Assembly: GCF_011761265.1 (NCBI RefSeq)
Contig: NZ_JAAOZB010000002.1
Coordinates: 744,001-808,000, forward strand
Length of the DNA stretch: 64,000 bases
Direction: 5' to 3'
From: Microbacterium halimionae
GTDB taxonomy: Bacteria; Actinomycetota; Actinomycetes; Actinomycetales; Microbacteriaceae
The translations under genes and the position numbers were made by a program. Below, piece by piece: positions 42,279 to 64,000 of this stretch. How positions within the stretch are numbered: the first letter of the stretch is position 1; each line of letters begins with the position of its first letter. A model generated the notes under the pieces. That model did no database searches. It was not told the origin of the DNA and saw only the letters and a list, made by a program, of their open reading frames with translations.

Positions 42279-42348
42279 GCGTCGGAGAATCGCACAAATT
42301 CGGAGACTCTTTGCGAGAAACCTCCTATGGAGTGCGATTCTCCGACGC
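42279..42348. repeat. Dispersed hairpin element, copy A
   Basis: Seventeen-nt perfect arms (GCGTCGGAGAATCGCAC and its complement) enclose a 36-nt centre. Inside, TCGGA and TCCTA flank a small stem CTC-TTTGC-GAG. The element sits between two convergent genes. The arm GTCGGAGAATCGC recurs in copies B, C and D. Confidence 0.85.
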
Positions 42349-54799: not shown

Positions 54800-57379
54800 T
54801 CAGACCTCCTGCGGTGCGAGTTCGATGTGGGTGACGGCGGTTGTCTCACCCGAAACGTAGTCGATTTCTGCGATGCGGCCCACGGCCTTGAGGTCGTCTT
54901 CGGCGAGCCGGAGCGCCGCGAGTGCGACCGGCGCCCCCGCGATCGTCATCCGTGCGACGGCTGTCTTTTGCGACGCTTTGGCCTCAGTCTTGGCGCGTCG
55001 AATACCGATCAGGGCTTCTCCGACGATCGACAGTACGGCAGTGTCACCGTGGGTTTCTTGAACCTCGGGCCACGCTGCTGTGTGAATCGAGCCTTCGTTG
55101 AACCACGACCATGATTCTTCGGTGGCAAACGACAGGACGGGCGCGAGCAGCCGCAGCAAGGACGAGAGGGCGATACGCAGCGCGAGAGCCGCAGATGCCT
55201 GAGCTTCGTGACGCTGGTCGTACGCGCGTTCTTTTACGAGCTCGAGGTAGTCATCGCAGAATGTCCAGAAGAACGACTCAGTGATTTCGAGCGCGCGGGC
55301 GTGATCGTAGTTTTCGAGAGCTGTTGTGGCATCCCGAATCACCGTGTTGAGGTTTGCGAGCATCGACGCGTCGAGCGGGTGCGTCACTTCTGCACCCTCG
55401 GGCACCGGGAACGACAGCACGAACTTCGCCGCATTCAGCACCTTGATCGCAAGGCGACGACCAATTTTGATCTGGGTCGGGTTCTGTGGGTCGAAAGCCG
55501 CGTCCGTGCCGAGGCGGCTAGAGGCTGCCCAGTAGCGCACAGCATCCGATCCATGCTTTTCGAGGATGTCGGCAGGCGTAACGACGTTGCCCTTCGACTT
55601 CGACATTTTCTTGCGGTCGGGGTCAACGATGAAGCCAGAGATGGCCGCGTTTTTCCACGGTGTGCGGTTGTCTTCGAGCGCGCTTCGCAGCATGGTCGAA
55701 AAGAGCCACGTGCGAATGATGTCTTGACCCTGCGGGCGAAGGTCGAACGGCGCAACAAGGTTCCAGAGCTCCGGGTCGCGCTCCCAGCCACCCGCGAGCT
55801 GCGGCGTAAGCGATGACGTCGCCCAGGTGTCGAAAATGTCGCGTTCGGCATCAAAACCGCCGGCGACGCCGCGCTGGTCTTCGCTGTAACCGGCAGGCAC
55901 ATCGGTGGTGGGGTCCACAGGAAGAAGCGAAGCGTCGGGCACGAGTACGCGGTCGTAGTCGCGCTCACCGTTCTCATCGAGCGCGTACCAAAGCGGAATC
56001 GGCACGCCGAAGAAGCGCTGACGCGAAACGAGCCAGTCGCCGGTGAGCCCGTTGGTCCAGTTTTCGTAGCGCACGCGCATGAAATCCGGATGCCACGCCA
56101 CCTCATGACCGAGGCTCACCAGCTTCTCGCGAAGTTCCGCATCACGAGCGCCGTTTCGCACGTACCACTGGCGGGTCGACACGATTTCAAGCGGGCGGTC
56201 ACCCTTCTCGAAGAACTTCACGGCGTGCGAGAAGGGCTTTCCAACTTCCAGCAGCTCGCCCGATTCGGTCAGCAGCTCAACGATGCGCTTTTTCGCGCTG
56301 AACACAGTCTTTCCAGCGAGCTCTGCGTAGTGTGCCTTCGCCGAGTCGCTGACAAGTGCAGCGGGAGCATCGGCGACGATGCGGCCGTCCTTGCCCATGA
56401 TTGTGCGGTTGGGGAGATCGAGTTCGCGCCACCAGATGATGTCGGTGACGTCACCGAACGTACAGATCATCGCGATGCCCGAGCCCTTGTCTTTCTGCGC
56501 AAGCTGGTGCGCGAGAACTGGCACTTCAACGTCGAAAAGTGGGCTGCGAACAGTGGTGCCAAACAGCGGCTGGTAGCGCTCGTCATCCGGGTGTGCAACG
56601 AGCGCGACGCACGCAGCGAGCAGCTCGGGGCGGGTGGTTTCAATCACTACGTCACCGCTGCCGTCGCTCTTGTGGAAAGCCACTCGGTGGTAGGCGGCCT
56701 GCTGCTCACGGTCTTCAAGCTCGGCCTGTGCGATCGCCGAGCGGAAGTCGACATCCCAGAGCGTGGGTGCCATCGACTGGTACGCCTCGCCCCGTTCGAT
56801 GTTTTTAAGGAAAGCGAGCTGACTGCTACGCATCGTCTCGTCCGAGATTGTGCGGTACGTCTGCGACCAATCGACGCTGAGTCCGAGGCTTCGCCAAAGC
56901 TCCTCGAAGAACTTCTCATCTTCGACAGTCAGCTGTTCGCACAGTTCGATGAAGTTGCGGCGGCTGATCGGCAGCTGGTCGGCAGCCTTGCTGCTCTTGT
57001 TGTCGCCACCTTCGTAGGGCGGCACGAAGTCGGGTGTGTAGGGGAGCGACGTGTCGCAGCGCACGCCATAGTAGTTCTGAACGCGACGTTCGGTGGGGAG
57101 TCCGTTGTCGTCCCAACCCATCGGGTAGAAGACAGTCTTGCCACGCATGCGCTCAAAGCGCACCTTGACATCGGTGTGGGTGTAGCTGAATACGTGTCCG
57201 ATGTGGAGGCTCCCCGACGCCGTCGGCGGGGGAGTATCGATGCTGAACACACCGGCCCGGCCGACCTTCGCCGCAGCGGCACGGTCAAAGGCGTAGGTTG
57301 CGGCCGCTGACCACGCGGCATCCCACTTCTTTTCGAGTCCTTCGAGGGCGGGCTTGTCGGGAATGATTGCTTCGGCCAC
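54800..57379 (-). CDS. valS: Valyl-tRNA synthetase
   Basis: ValS charges tRNA-Val and edits threonine. The 859-residue class I enzyme has the HIGH motif in TASGSLHIGHVFSYTH, an editing domain (SGDVVIETTRPELLAACVA), the KMSKS loop in DRKKMSKSKGNVV and an anticodon-binding domain. The C-terminal coiled-coil arm found in many ValRS is not obvious, consistent with a short actinobacterial form. The frame opens at 57511, but GTG 57379 follows GAGGAG by 6 nt and removes an unrelated extension. No T-box was seen upstream. Confidence 0.95.
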   Translation of the reverse strand: MAEAIIPDKPALEGLEKKWDAAWSAAATYAFDRAAAAKVGRAGVFSIDTPPPTASGSLHIGHVFSYTHTDVKVRFERMRGKTVFYPMGWDDNGLPTERRVQNYYGVRCDTSLPYTPDFVPPYEGGDNKSSKAADQLPISRRNFIELCEQLTVEDEKFFEELWRSLGLSVDWSQTYRTISDETMRSSQLAFLKNIERGEAYQSMAPTLWDVDFRSAIAQAELEDREQQAAYHRVAFHKSDGSGDVVIETTRPELLAACVALVAHPDDERYQPLFGTTVRSPLFDVEVPVLAHQLAQKDKGSGIAMICTFGDVTDIIWWRELDLPNRTIMGKDGRIVADAPAALVSDSAKAHYAELAGKTVFSAKKRIVELLTESGELLEVGKPFSHAVKFFEKGDRPLEIVSTRQWYVRNGARDAELREKLVSLGHEVAWHPDFMRVRYENWTNGLTGDWLVSRQRFFGVPIPLWYALDENGERDYDRVLVPDASLLPVDPTTDVPAGYSEDQRGVAGGFDAERDIFDTWATSSLTPQLAGGWERDPELWNLVAPFDLRPQGQDIIRTWLFSTMLRSALEDNRTPWKNAAISGFIVDPDRKKMSKSKGNVVTPADILEKHGSDAVRYWAASSRLGTDAAFDPQNPTQIKIGRRLAIKVLNAAKFVLSFPVPEGAEVTHPLDASMLANLNTVIRDATTALENYDHARALEITESFFWTFCDDYLELVKERAYDQRHEAQASAALALRIALSSLLRLLAPVLSFATEESWSWFNEGSIHTAAWPEVQETHGDTAVLSIVGEALIGIRRAKTEAKASQKTAVARMTIAGAPVALAALRLAEDDLKAVGRIAEIDYVSGETTAVTHIELAPQEV

Positions 57380-57483
57380 GGGAGACTCCTCGGCGATATG
57401 TGCGGCACTGTGTGAGCGTGCCTGAATGTCGGAACCCACCGATTCTAACGGCGCTTGTGGCGCTTGCGTTCCCGCGATCGCGC

Positions 57484-58047
57484 TCACACCCGGTCTGAAC
57501 CGGATCGCCACGTCGCGCGGTCGATCGCGAACGCCAAGTGGCGCATGTCAACGCCGCGGTAGTTGACGGTGAAGCTTCGCTGCACTGTCATTCCGAGCCT
57601 GATTGCGACATTCATAGACGCAATGTTGGTATCTCGCACTTTTGCAAAGATCGCATCGGCATCCAGCGCTTCAAAGGCCCAATCGCGAGATGCCGATGCG
57701 GCTTCCGTAGCAAAGCCGCGCCCCCAGACATCGCGTCGAAAGAGGTACCCGACTTCCCACACCTCATCGGAGTCGATCAGCTGACGCGTGATCCCGCACT
57801 GACCCACTAGTTCTCCGGTCGATCGCTCGACTACAGCCCAAAGCCCGCAGCCGTCGGTTGCGTAGCGTTCACGCTGTCGACGCAGCCATGACGCGCATTC
57901 CCTGGGCGAAAAGGCACCCTCGTACGCTGTCATCGTTATCGCATCGCCGAGGATGAGTTCGAGGGCTGGGAGGTCATGCTCTTGCAGCGGACGAATGCTG
58001 AGTCTCGTCGTCTCGATCCTGAGGTCGTAGCCTTCGGTGTCTTTCAC
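57484..58047 (-). CDS. GNAT family N-acetyltransferase (RimJ/RimL-like)
   Basis: The 187-residue protein has the GNAT pattern: IETTRLSIRPLQEHDLPAL at the start, VGQCGITRQ, the CoA loop VWGRGFATEAAS, and NIASMNVAIRLGM in the last part, as in RimJ/RimL-type Nα-acetyltransferases of many substrates. The substrate is unknown. GTG 58047 has GAGGAT 6 nt upstream, which could be a Shine-Dalgarno or a -10-like box. Repeat copy B lies just upstream. Confidence 0.85.
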   Translation of the reverse strand: MKDTEGYDLRIETTRLSIRPLQEHDLPALELILGDAITMTAYEGAFSPRECASWLRRQRERYATDGCGLWAVVERSTGELVGQCGITRQLIDSDEVWEVGYLFRRDVWGRGFATEAASASRDWAFEALDADAIFAKVRDTNIASMNVAIRLGMTVQRSFTVNYRGVDMRHLAFAIDRATWRSGSDRV

Positions 58048-58097: not shown

Positions 58098-58167
58098 CGG
58101 TCGGAGAAGCGCACTGTGTCGGGAGGTTCTTTGCGAAGGGATCCGACGGAATGCGATTCTCCGACCG
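58098..58167. repeat. Dispersed hairpin element, copy B
   Basis: Sixteen-nt arms CGGTCGGAGAAGCGCA and TGCGATTCTCCGACCG differ at one pair. Inside, TCGGG and TCCGA bound a 28-nt core with a small stem TTC-TTTGC-GAA. It lies between the MFS gene end and the acetyltransferase start, both minus strand, so it could also end the MFS transcript. Confidence 0.8.
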
Positions 58168-59487: not shown

Positions 59488-59568
59488 GAGAGACCATCCT
59501 GCCACTGCTTTCGCGTGTTGTTGCACGCAGGCCAACAATTGCTTCAACCCTTCAGGCCGAGGTGTTGC

Positions 59569-59634
59569 GACGGAGAATCGCGCTCGGGCGGATGAAATGC
59601 CTATTTCCGTTCCGACTTACGGCGATTCTCCGAC
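59569..59634. repeat. Dispersed hairpin element, copy C
   Basis: Arms GACGGAGAATCGC and GCGATTCTCCGAC differ at one pair. The core is 32 nt with TCGGG/TCCGA and a stem GAAAT-GCCT-ATTTC. The left spacer is only 2 nt against 6 in the others. It lies in the divergent region between the MFS and DUF559-like genes and may affect both promoters. Confidence 0.78.
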
Positions 59635-59735
59635 CGATTCTTGTTCGTTCTCCACAGCTCGTTATCCGTCGCTGAAGTTCAGGAATGCGGTGCACGTCGC
59701 CGTCTAGGGCGTGCCAGCGACTCATCCTGATCTCT

Positions 59736-60560
59736 ATGAATCTCCTTGACGCCGTCGAATCGTCTAGTGGAGTCGCACGCGTTGCGACGTTGGAGCGACG
59801 GGGTGTGAGGCGACATCGCATCGCCGACGCTCTTCACAGAGGCACTTTGATCCGCCCTCGGCGGGGGTGGGTTGCGCTTCCACACGCTGACATTGAACTT
59901 GTCGCGGCTGCTCGATCGGGCGTCGTGCTCTCTTGCATTACCGCGGCGCGTCGACGCTCCTTGTGGGTGCTTGAAGAACCCGAATATCACGTCGCTGCGG
60001 CTCCGCACGCTCGCGGTGGCACGCGTCCAGGTGCCCATGTGCACTGGGCTCAACCCGTCGTGCCGCGGCATCCTGATCACTTGGTCGACGGCGTCGAGAA
60101 CATGCTGGCGATTGTCTCGTTGTGTCAACCTTTCGAGCCAGCACTCGCTGTGTGGGAATCGGCGCTTCGGGTCGGACTCATTACGAAGACAGCATTGGAG
60201 GCGCTGCCATTCCAGGCTCGCGCACGAGAAATTCTCTCCATCGCGTCGCCCTACTCTGATTCCGGCTTAGAGAGTTTTGTCATGCCGAGGTTGAAATGGA
60301 TGCGGGTCCGCATCGTTCCTCAAGCGTGGATACTCGGGCATCGGGTCGATTTTCTTATTGGTGCGAGGCTCATCCTGCAGATTGATGGCGCGCACCATGT
60401 GGGCGACCAGCGAACGAGTGACAACGCCCATAATGCGCTCCTGATGATCAATGGGTTTCATGTCGTCCGTATCGGCTACGCACAGGTTGTGGGGGACTGG
60501 CCGAGCGTGCAAGACATCATCATGAGGGCAGTTGCCCAGGGATTGCACCTCGCAAAGTGA
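59736..60560 (+). CDS. AbiEi-like winged-helix protein with DUF559 (Vsr-like nuclease) domain
   Basis: The 274-residue protein has an N-terminal region like the AbiEi-type antitoxin winged helix (ARVATLERRGVRRHRIADAL, RPRRGWVALP), a middle region, and a C-terminal DUF559-like domain. In that domain SGLESFVMPRL, HRVDFLIGARLILQIDGAHH and GFHVVRIGYAQVV correspond to the Glu, Asp and Asp/Glu-type positions of the PD-(D/E)xK fold. Gln replaces the usual Glu before IDG. No AbiEii toxin lies nearby. ATG 59736 gives a normal N-terminus. Hairpin copies C and D flank it. Nuclease activity is inferred only. Confidence 0.7.
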   Translation: MNLLDAVESSSGVARVATLERRGVRRHRIADALHRGTLIRPRRGWVALPHADIELVAAARSGVVLSCITAARRRSLWVLEEPEYHVAAAPHARGGTRPGAHVHWAQPVVPRHPDHLVDGVENMLAIVSLCQPFEPALAVWESALRVGLITKTALEALPFQARAREILSIASPYSDSGLESFVMPRLKWMRVRIVPQAWILGHRVDFLIGARLILQIDGAHHVGDQRTSDNAHNALLMINGFHVVRIGYAQVVGDWPSVQDIIMRAVAQGLHLAK

Positions 60561-60580
60561 CGCCGAGGCGTCCGCGTTGC

Positions 60581-60646
60581 GTCGGAGAATCTCATTCCCT
60601 CGGAAGATATTGCCGAAATAGCTCCGACGCCGCGCGATTCTCCGAC
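60581..60646. repeat. Dispersed hairpin element, copy D
   Basis: Arms GTCGGAGAATCTC and GCGATTCTCCGAC differ at one pair. The 28-nt core has TCGGA/TCCGA and a stem TATT-GCCGA-AATA. The element starts 20 nt after the DUF559-like gene and lies about 80 nt upstream of the ileS promoter candidate, so it may terminate the former. Confidence 0.8.
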
Positions 60647-60726
60647 GTAGCGGTGCTGAGCGGCACCCCGCCCCGTGATGCGGAACGGATGAGGAACATC
60701 AGCGAGCGCGCAGCGTGTGTAGCGAG

Positions 60727-60732
60727 TAGAAT
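60727..60732 (+). promoter_or_regulatory. Candidate -10 box of ileS
   Basis: TAGAAT lies within the loop and right arm of a strong hairpin (60713-60744). A start site near 60739 would put the T-box stem I at the 5' end of the transcript. No clear -35 box is seen. Confidence 0.4.
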
Positions 60733-60738
60733 CGCTGC

Positions 60739-60936
60739 ACACGCATTGATCCGGCTATCACCGGGGAGCACTCGGAAGAACGGCTTCGGCCAGGTAGAAC
60801 CGAGCGGGTCAGGCCCGTTACAGCCGCTGTGAGAGAGGTCGGATGCTTCGGCAACCGGCAACGCAGGGTGGTATCGCGGTCCTTCCCAGGGTCGTCCCGG
60901 CACAACCGAAACGCCGACACACCTGCGAGAACACTC
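60739..60936 (+). promoter_or_regulatory. T-box riboswitch, ileS leader, ultrashort stem I type
   Basis: CCGG-CTATCA-CCGG (60751-60764) is a very short stem I whose loop holds the Ile specifier codon ATC (60757-60759). GGAGCACTCGGAAGAACGG follows, as in actinobacterial ileS leaders. The T-box core AGGGTGGTATCGCGG (60865-60879) contains TGGT, which can pair with the ACCA end of uncharged tRNA-Ile. No terminator with a T tract precedes the ATG, so control is probably at translation initiation, as in mycobacterial ileS. The 5' boundary is estimated. Confidence 0.88.
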
Positions 60937-63900
60937 ATGAGCTATCCGCGTCGCTCCGCCTTCGGAGCTGCAGCAGATTCAACGACCGCGAACGCCGTCG
61001 TTCCGAGCCCGCGCTTTCCCGATATCGAGCGCGACGTGCTCGATTTTTGGAAGGCAGACGACACGTTCCGTGCGTCGATCGCGCAGCGCGAAGGCGCCGA
61101 GGAGTGGGTCTTCTACGACGGCCCTCCTTTTGCCAACGGGCTGCCGCACTACGGGCACTTGCTCACCGGTTACGCCAAAGATCTCTTCCCGCGCTTCCAG
61201 ACAATGCGTGGCAAGAAGGTTGACCGTGTCTTCGGTTGGGACACCCACGGTCTCCCCGCAGAGCTGGAGGCGATGAAGCAGCTCGGCATCACCGAGAAGA
61301 GCGAGATCGAAGCCATGGGCATCGAGACCTTCAACGCCAAGGCGCGAGCTTCGGTGCTGGAGTACACGCACGAGTGGGAAGACTATGTCACTCGCCAGGC
61401 GCGCTGGGTCGACTTCGAACGTGGCTACAAGACGCTCGACACGGGCTTTATGGAGTCAGTGCTGTGGGCGTTCAAGAGCCTCTACGACAAAGACCTCGCC
61501 TACGAGGGCTACCGCGTTCTGCCCTATTGCTGGCGCGACGAAACGCCGTTGTCGAACCACGAGCTGCGCATGGACGACGATGTCTACAAGATGCGCCAGG
61601 ACCCCTCCGTCACTGTCACGTTCCCGTTAACGGGAGTCAAAGCCGAGTCGCTCGGACTCACGGCAGTGCGCGCACTCGCGTGGACAACGACACCCTGGAC
61701 GCTCCCGACGAACCTCGCACTCGCCGTTGGACCCGAGATCACCTACGCCGTGCTCTCGGCCGGCCCCGCGGGCGCCGCCGACGTTCACCACACCCCTGAG
61801 GGTGCGTCCGATGACAAGCTTGAAGCAACGGCGCACCGCTACCTTCTTGCCGAAGATCTGGTTGGCGCACACGCGAAAGATCTGGGTTACGAGACTGCGG
61901 ATGCCGCGATCGCCGCTATCGAGCGGACGATCACCGGTGCCGAGCTCGAAGACGTCACGTACGACCGTCTTTTTGACTACTACGCGGACGCCGAGACGTG
62001 GGGAACTGAGTCAGCATGGCGCATCCTCGTCGACGACTACGTCACGACCACCGACGGCACCGGCATCGTGCACCAGGCTCCGGCTTACGGTGAAGATGAC
62101 CAGCGTGTCACGGGGGCTGCCGGCATCCCGCTCATCATGAGCCTTGACGACGGCGGCAAGTTCTTGCCGCAGGTGACGGATGTCGCGGGCGAACTGTGGA
62201 TGGATGCCAACCGTCCGCTCATCCGCCTGCTTCGCCAGGAGGGACGCTTGCTGCGCGAAGCAAGCTACGAGCACTCTTATCCGCACTGCTGGCGCTGCCG
62301 TAACCCCCTGATCTACAAAGCTGTCTCGAGCTGGTTCGTGCGTGTCACGTCGATCAAAGACCGTCTCGTTGAACTCAACGAGCAGATCACATGGGCGCCC
62401 GACAACGTCAAGCACGGCCAGTTCGGCAAATGGCTCGAGGGCGCGCGCGACTGGTCGATCAGCCGCAATAGGTACTGGGGTTCACCGATCCCGATCTGGA
62501 AGAGCGACGACCCGGCCTACCCGCGGGTCGACGCGTACGGCTCGCTCGAAGATATGGAACGTGACTTTGGCCGGTTGCCGAAGAACGAAAAGGGCGAGGT
62601 TGATCTGCACCGCCCGTACATCGATGACTTGACTCGGCCCAACCCCGACGACCCAACTGGGCAATCGACGATGCGTCGGATCGAAGACGTCTTCGACGTG
62701 TGGTTCGACTCCGGGTCTATGCCGTACGCGCAGGTTCACTACCCATTCGAGAACCGAGAATGGTTCGACTCGCACGCGCCCGCCGACTTCATCGTGGAGT
62801 ACATCGGTCAGACGCGCGGCTGGTTCTACGTGATGCACGTGCTGTCCGGGGCGCTCTTTGATCGTCCGGCATTCACTGGAGTGTCGTGCCACGGAATCGT
62901 GCTCGGTAGCGACGGCCAGAAAATGTCGAAGTCGCTGCGCAACTATCCCGACGTCAGTGAAGTGTTCGACCGTGACGGTTCCGACGCGATGCGCTGGTTC
63001 CTGATGTCGAGTTCAGTGCTTCGTGGCGGCAACCTCGTCGTGACAGAAGAGGGCATCCGCTCGGGCGTGCGCGAGTTCATGCTTCCGCTCTGGAACACGT
63101 GGTACTTCTTCTCGACCTACGCGAACGCTGCTGGGGGGCAGGCGGGGCAAGGCTATGAAGCGACCTGGCGCACGGACTCGACAGACGTTCTCGACCGCTA
63201 CATCCTCGCGCTGTTGGGTGATCTTGTGCGAGATGTCGCGACCGATTTGGATGCCCTCGATTCCACGTCTGCGACAGCCAAGCTGCGTGAGTTCAGCGAA
63301 GCTCTCACCAACTGGTACATCCGTCGTTCGCGCGACCGCTTCTGGACCGGCGTGGATGCTTCGAAGCCCGAATCACGTGATGCTTTCGACACGCTTTACA
63401 CGGTGCTCGAAACTCTCACGCGAGTGGCAGCCCCGCTTCTTCCGCTCATCTCTGAGCGCATCTGGCAGGGCCTGACGGGTGGCCGAAGCGTACACCTCAC
63501 GGACTGGCCGGATGCCTCCGCCTTTCCCGCAGCCCGTGACATTCGTACGGCAATGGATGCTGTGCGCGAAGTGTCATCAACCGCGAACGCGCTGCGTAAG
63601 CGCGAGGGGAAGCGCGTTCGGCTTCCGCTTCCGCAGCTCACTGTGGTTGTTTCAGACGCCGCCTCGCTCGCGCAGTTCGATGAAATCGTGCGCGACGAAC
63701 TCAACGTCAAGAGTGTCGCGCTCGTTGAACTGACAGAAACCGCCGCGGCTGACTATGGGATCACTCACCGCCTGTCTGTCAACGCTCGAGCCGCTGGTCC
63801 GCGCCTTGGTAAGCAGGTGCAGAATGCGATCAAGGCTGCTCGCGCAGGGGAGTGGTCGGATGAGAACGGCGTCGTCGTCGCCGGTGGCATCCAGCTCGAA

Positions 63901-64000
63901 GCGGGTGAGTACGACCTGGTACTTGAAACCACTGGCCGCCCAGAAGGCGAAGCACTCGGAACGCTCGATCGCGGCGGCTTCGTGCTGCTTGACACCGCAA
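60937..64000 (+). CDS. ileS: Isoleucyl-tRNA synthetase, 3' end outside window
   Basis: IleS charges tRNA-Ile and edits valine. About 1021 codons are visible from ATG 60937; the family in actinobacteria has roughly 1050-1110. HIGH appears as HYGH (71-74) in [13 protein letters not shown], and KMSKS at 662-666 in [14 protein letters not shown]. The editing domain carries [18 protein letters not shown]. It belongs to the eukaryote-like (type 2) IleRS branch by its [12 protein letters not shown] and GRVEYIG-like [13 protein letters not shown] motifs. The Shine-Dalgarno is weak, fitting a leader-controlled start. Confidence 0.95.

Follow-up and report, generated by a model that had tools for sequence, protein, structure and literature searches.

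Translational T-box riboswitches in front of actinobacterial ileS genes were described in 2005 by Seliverstov (PMC1262725). The features of the class, a short stem I carrying the specifier in its apical loop, a pseudoknot and a sequestrator, are reviewed with the ileS leaders of M. tuberculosis and N. farcinica in the available portion of PMC7583486, and the N. farcinica ileS T-box and its kink-turn are treated in PMC10651847. TBDB contains a separate model for translational T-boxes, according to the available portion of PMC7778990. A literature search retrieved no publication joining T-box, Microbacterium and isoleucyl-tRNA synthetase.

The T-box located upstream of ileS in Microbacterium halimionae is genuine but ordinary, a new instance of this well-known tRNA-sensing class. 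The window, that is, the whole 64-kb stretch of DNA that was analysed, contains ileS (isoleucine–tRNA ligase) on the plus strand from an ATG at 60937; the frame (60937-64000) leaves the window, and its product scores 795.4 bits against a cut-off of 621.4 for TIGR00392 in the NCBIfam profile search. The segment 60739-60936 is very probably the ileS leader, a translational T-box riboswitch with an ultrashort stem I, accompanied by a promoter palindrome that has no demonstrated role; we infer the RNA start site, the regulation and this species' own sequestrator. The leader shares with the actinobacterial translational ileS T-boxes the gene, the AUC specifier, the short stem I with apical-loop specifier, stem II, the 21-nt IIA/B pseudoknot, stem III, the antisequestrator and the absence of a terminator, as far as the available portions of PMC1262725 and PMC7583486 describe them. 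It departs from them in the antisequestrator bulge, which reads UGGUAUC in place of the usual UGGUACC, and in its Shine-Dalgarno-side strand, whose predicted partner is the T-box strand rather than the 3′ A1 strand. The core, the UGGN bulge and the specifier principle are common to the long-stem-I transcriptional T-boxes (RF00230; TBDB class I, available portion of PMC7778990), in contrast to which stem I of M. halimionae is far shorter, a terminator is absent and RF00230 scores below gathering.

RF00230, the Rfam T-box model, matches 60737-60902 with 34 bits (E 4.7e-6 on 401 nt), and in the whole genome the ileS leader (E 8.2e-6) is its sole match at E ≤ 0.1. The Rfam check named in the preliminary description thus gives a significant E value, but the 34 bits do not reach the gathering score of 93, and RF00230 is consequently absent from the default Rfam scan. 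Such a score is expected, because RF00230 is a long-stem-I model and TBDB built a separate one for this class (available portion of PMC7778990); this Microbacterium illustrates how the gathering score misses the short actinobacterial T-boxes. An sR28 match in the same search (17.2 bits of 39) was judged to be chance. The specifier AUC corresponds to the anticodon GAU, and the UGGU of the bulge (60869-60872) suits the 3′ end of tRNA-Ile(GAU). One gene for this tRNA was found among the 30 of 45 tRNA places given to ARAGORN, and since its base 73 is A, the ACCA end fits UGGU.

The leader was matched in 194 of the 198 genomes of the genus, its own included. With the elements found in their places and the genome-wide RF00230 E value, this bears out the original proposal of an ileS T-box with an ultrashort stem I and an ATC specifier. 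The leader set used below comprises the 130 best-ranked of the 194 matching genomes (30 loci and 100 regions), and divergent leaders are therefore under-represented in it; 129 were anchored, M. halimionae and 128 others, while one (L067), whose anchor fell elsewhere, was left out. GGTGGTA is present in 129 of 129 leaders, the anchoring itself having used the core with at most two substitutions, and ATC is likewise present in all 129, a uniformity that is partly by construction because the leaders were anchored on ATCACCGGGG with at most one substitution. A covariance model, R1, was built from 34 leaders of the genus and applied at E ≤ 0.001 with strict filters. It matches 43 of 149 phylum genomes, own included, many of the matches being weak or limited to the 3′ part, and 106 genomes have no match under these filters; its scores for the M. 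halimionae leader are not independent, because the model contains that leader. An IleRS gene adjoins the match in all 12 of the best loci among the 43 (own and 11 others). Of the 80 named loci that rank best by their IleRS N-terminus, most carry Microbacterium in the title, and one (L206) has no anchor. A Microbacterium-like ileS and its leader also occur on a contig (L182) whose title names Stenotrophomonas maltophilia strain P13, which is probably a case of contamination or mislabelling.

All leader elements are situated on the plus strand. Stem I (60743-60769) consists of a lower helix (60743-60744 with 60768-60769), an apparent kink-turn suggested by the sequence, and an upper helix (60751-60764), in which CCGG at 60751-60754 pairs with CCGG at 60761-60764 around the apical loop CTATCA (60755-60760) that holds the specifier ATC, AUC in the RNA (60757-60759). 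The upper helix and loop agree with the preliminary description; its restriction of stem I to these parts does not hold, as a covarying lower helix is also present. In an alignment of 34 rows, one pair of the lower helix (G60743-C60744 with G60768-C60769) is G-C in 30 rows and A-U in four, and the other is C-G in 32 and U-G in two. A third pair below this helix is formed in 27 of 34 rows and is a C-A mismatch in M. halimionae, the upper helix is without variation, and 11 of the 129 leaders have a five-base loop. The short stem I with its apical-loop specifier is supported by the sequence, by its covarying base and, by eye, by leaders of other genera beside IleRS.

Stem II, the IIA/B pseudoknot, stem III and the antisequestrator, which also mark the class, are found downstream of stem I. 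Stem II (60771-60804) contains an internal loop that would be S-turn-like by resemblance, and its five basal pairs are paired in 100% of cells, two of them changed on both sides. The 21-nt stem IIA/B pseudoknot (60805-60825; 60805-60807 with 60815-60817 and 60812-60814 with 60823-60825, the pair assignment being partly inferred) is invariant in the 34 rows and hence only consistent with the alignment. Stem III (60838-60859) shows changes on both sides at three of four counted pairs and is paired in 70.6% of cells on this alignment, which is poor there. The T-box core AGGGTGGTATCGCGG (60865-60879) lies in the antisequestrator (60863-60901), which comprises the helices A1 and A2 and the bulge UGGUAUC (60869-60875). 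A1 is paired in 93.1% and A2 in 98.8% of cells; A1 covaries at two pairs, and its third pair is broken in 14 of 34 rows, including M. halimionae (A-G). Taken as a whole, the structure is paired in 94.4% of 1122 cells, compared with 88.4% in shuffled and at most 48.6% in slid alignments, and its covariation score is 0.189 versus 0.093 when shuffled (reached in 0 of 500) and at most 0.077 when slid. Two of the five structure measures separate weakly: pairs changed on both sides (9 versus 6.8; 27 of 500 shuffles) and further pair types (29 versus 26.9; 88 of 500 shuffles).

The −10 box TAGAAT (60727-60732, plus strand) was assigned from column conservation, its four strongest columns being T in 103, A in 104, A in 95 and T in 104 of the 129 leaders; the assignment rests on conservation because a consensus scan of 60401-61100 gave no sigma-70-like promoter passing its thresholds. 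Position 60739 on the same strand is A in 114 of 129 leaders, and 11 of the 15 exceptions are five-base-loop leaders displaced by one base through the anchor. The conserved −10 box and A60739, along with the lower helix, suggest that the RNA begins at about 60739, within the right arm of the palindrome, which is where the preliminary description had tentatively placed it. The spacing of the promoter and of this putative start from stem I is constant throughout the genus.

The palindrome (60713-60744, no strand assigned) has 13-nt arms, GCGTGTGTAGCGA at 60713-60725 and TCGCTGCACACGC at 60732-60744, and a 6-nt loop. The near-perfect hairpin containing TAGAAT that was reported earlier is thus present, with 12 of 13 Watson-Crick pairs and one G-T. 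It is probably a species-specific, incidental sequence, and its left arm probably lies outside the transcript, since both the −10 box and A60739 keep their place across the leaders. The earlier suggestion of a protein site would make it an operator, at which a dimeric repressor over the −10 box governs ileS transcription in this species, a reading that we regard as very improbable. The 12/13 arm match is indeed centred on the −10 box, a free search of the 129 promoters ranks M. halimionae best (score 10; the next three score 9), and only 2 of 2000 mononucleotide shuffles reach this score, so base composition alone seldom yields a palindrome of this strength. Against an operator stands the fixed-site count, made in a single register whereas the free search permits shifts: the other 128 leaders pair 1-9 of 13 positions, the nearest relative (G152, leader 92% identical) pairs 5, and the 79 anchorable among the best 80 named loci, a set that overlaps the 128, pair 1-7. 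Nor are there genome copies above control, as the whole genome holds three other places with at most three mismatches and five for the reversed control pattern. The palindrome is therefore neither conserved in near relatives nor repeated in the genome; the window itself holds 14 palindromes scoring at least 10, this one included. The other suggestion, that the RNA begins upstream of 60713 and the palindrome adds a further stem to the riboswitch at its 5′ end, is slightly less credible still. It can draw on folding energies, in which the longer RNA outperforms shuffles (z −2.42; 3 of 200) and RNA from 60739 does not (z 0.18). Conservation, in contrast, begins with the −10 box and with position 60739: the left-arm columns 60713-60722 carry 0.13-0.41 bits, and 60723-60725, beside the −10 box, 0.69-0.84 bits (129 leaders). 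Moreover, the right arm of a longer transcript would occupy G60743-C60744 of the covarying lower helix of stem I, which speaks against a place for the palindrome in the riboswitch.

A scan of 60401-61100 gave no terminator-like site, and none of the 129 leaders has a T-rich 8-mer (five T) between the core and the ATG, in agreement with the absence of a terminator noted beforehand. The accompanying proposal of translational control is likely to be correct for the genus, where it is supported by a covarying Shine-Dalgarno sequestrator, although the usual pairing is weak in this species. Across 102 distinct leaders, pairing between the Shine-Dalgarno-side strand and the 3′ A1 strand of the same leader scores −11.57 kcal/mol, better than the −10.73 kcal/mol obtained with shuffled partners (1 of 500). 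M. halimionae has a weak Shine-Dalgarno candidate, GAGA (60927-60930, plus strand), 6 nt before the ATG, which matches the GAG/GGAG of its relatives. Its predicted sequestrator, 60862-60870 with 60918-60927 (60862-60927 overall, plus strand), comes from the energy model and has no covariation support. The unclean masking of GAG by this sequestrator would accord with control of transcription elongation, for example Rho-dependent, instead of translation. We consider such control improbable in view of the missing terminator-like site and T-rich 8-mers, the genus-wide covariation of the Shine-Dalgarno sequestrator and the description of the class as translational in the available portions of PMC1262725 and PMC7583486.

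Terminators and sequestrators usually employ the 3′ antiterminator strand. Judged by duplex energy, 67 of the 129 leaders favour the 3′ A1 strand as partner of the Shine-Dalgarno-side strand, 34 the T-box strand and 28 neither; by pairing probabilities the numbers are 84, 11 and 33 of 128, L010 being left out because the start pattern missed it. Seven of 129 leaders have neither sequestrator pairing at −9.9 or better. M. halimionae and its sister reach a duplex energy of −15.7 with the T-box strand and of −3.5 and −3.6 with the 3′ strand, and these are also the two of 129 leaders in which AUC replaces ACC in the antisequestrator bulge. It is conceivable, though on balance unlikely, that the two have exchanged strands, with the T-box strand 60862-60870, U60869 and G60870 included, becoming the partner of the Shine-Dalgarno-side strand. 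As U60869 and G60870 would read the tRNA acceptor end, an exchange would bring the sequestering strand into direct competition with the tRNA end for the same bases. The possible exchange poses a small, testable question on the drift of expression platforms. Sequestration by the T-box strand was rejected as a general rule: among the 102 distinct leaders the cognate pairing (−11.15) is worse than the shuffled one (−11.53), being equalled or beaten in 498 of 500 shuffles. It is also worse than shuffled in the 71 leaders with strong 3′ pairing (500 of 500) and no better than shuffled in the 31 with weak 3′ pairing (142 of 500).

Folding of 60834-60960 gives −42.0 kcal/mol when free, −41.6 kcal/mol with the sequestrator enforced and −36.2 kcal/mol with the antisequestrator enforced. 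A60928-G60929 remain unpaired in the modelled sequestrator (0.98 and 0.91), whereas enforcing the antisequestrator draws G60927-G60929 into other pairs (unpaired 0.04-0.12). This is opposite to what a clean switch would show, and the model accordingly does not turn the ribosome site cleanly on and off. The proposed mode of action would run as follows. Transcription from the promoter with the −10 box TAGAAT would begin at about A60739, and the AUC in the stem I loop would read the anticodon of tRNA-Ile(GAU), with stem II and the IIA/B pseudoknot assisting. The ACCA end of an uncharged tRNA would then pair with UGGU of the antisequestrator bulge, holding this fold and leaving the ileS start region open. 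A charged tRNA would make no such pairing, and the strand beside the weak Shine-Dalgarno would fold back onto the T-box, lowering translation.

The surroundings of the locus offer several minor observations. Four places, 42280-42347, 58099-58166, 59568-59635 and 60580-60647, carry GATTCTCCGACG-like ends in inverted orientation, 68 nt apart (0 to 2 mismatches), the last of these copies sitting just upstream of the ileS promoter. The genome has four places with perfect 11-nt ends of this kind at 66 nt, and none for a control pattern. The element, which is palindromic, dispersed and constant in length, resembles REP or MITE repeats. An open reading frame of 291 codons (59685-60560) lies upstream of ileS on the same strand and has no NCBIfam match at E ≤ 0.001. 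A long minus-strand frame near ileS (54800-57511) resembles, by eye, a class I aminoacyl-tRNA synthetase, perhaps valS.
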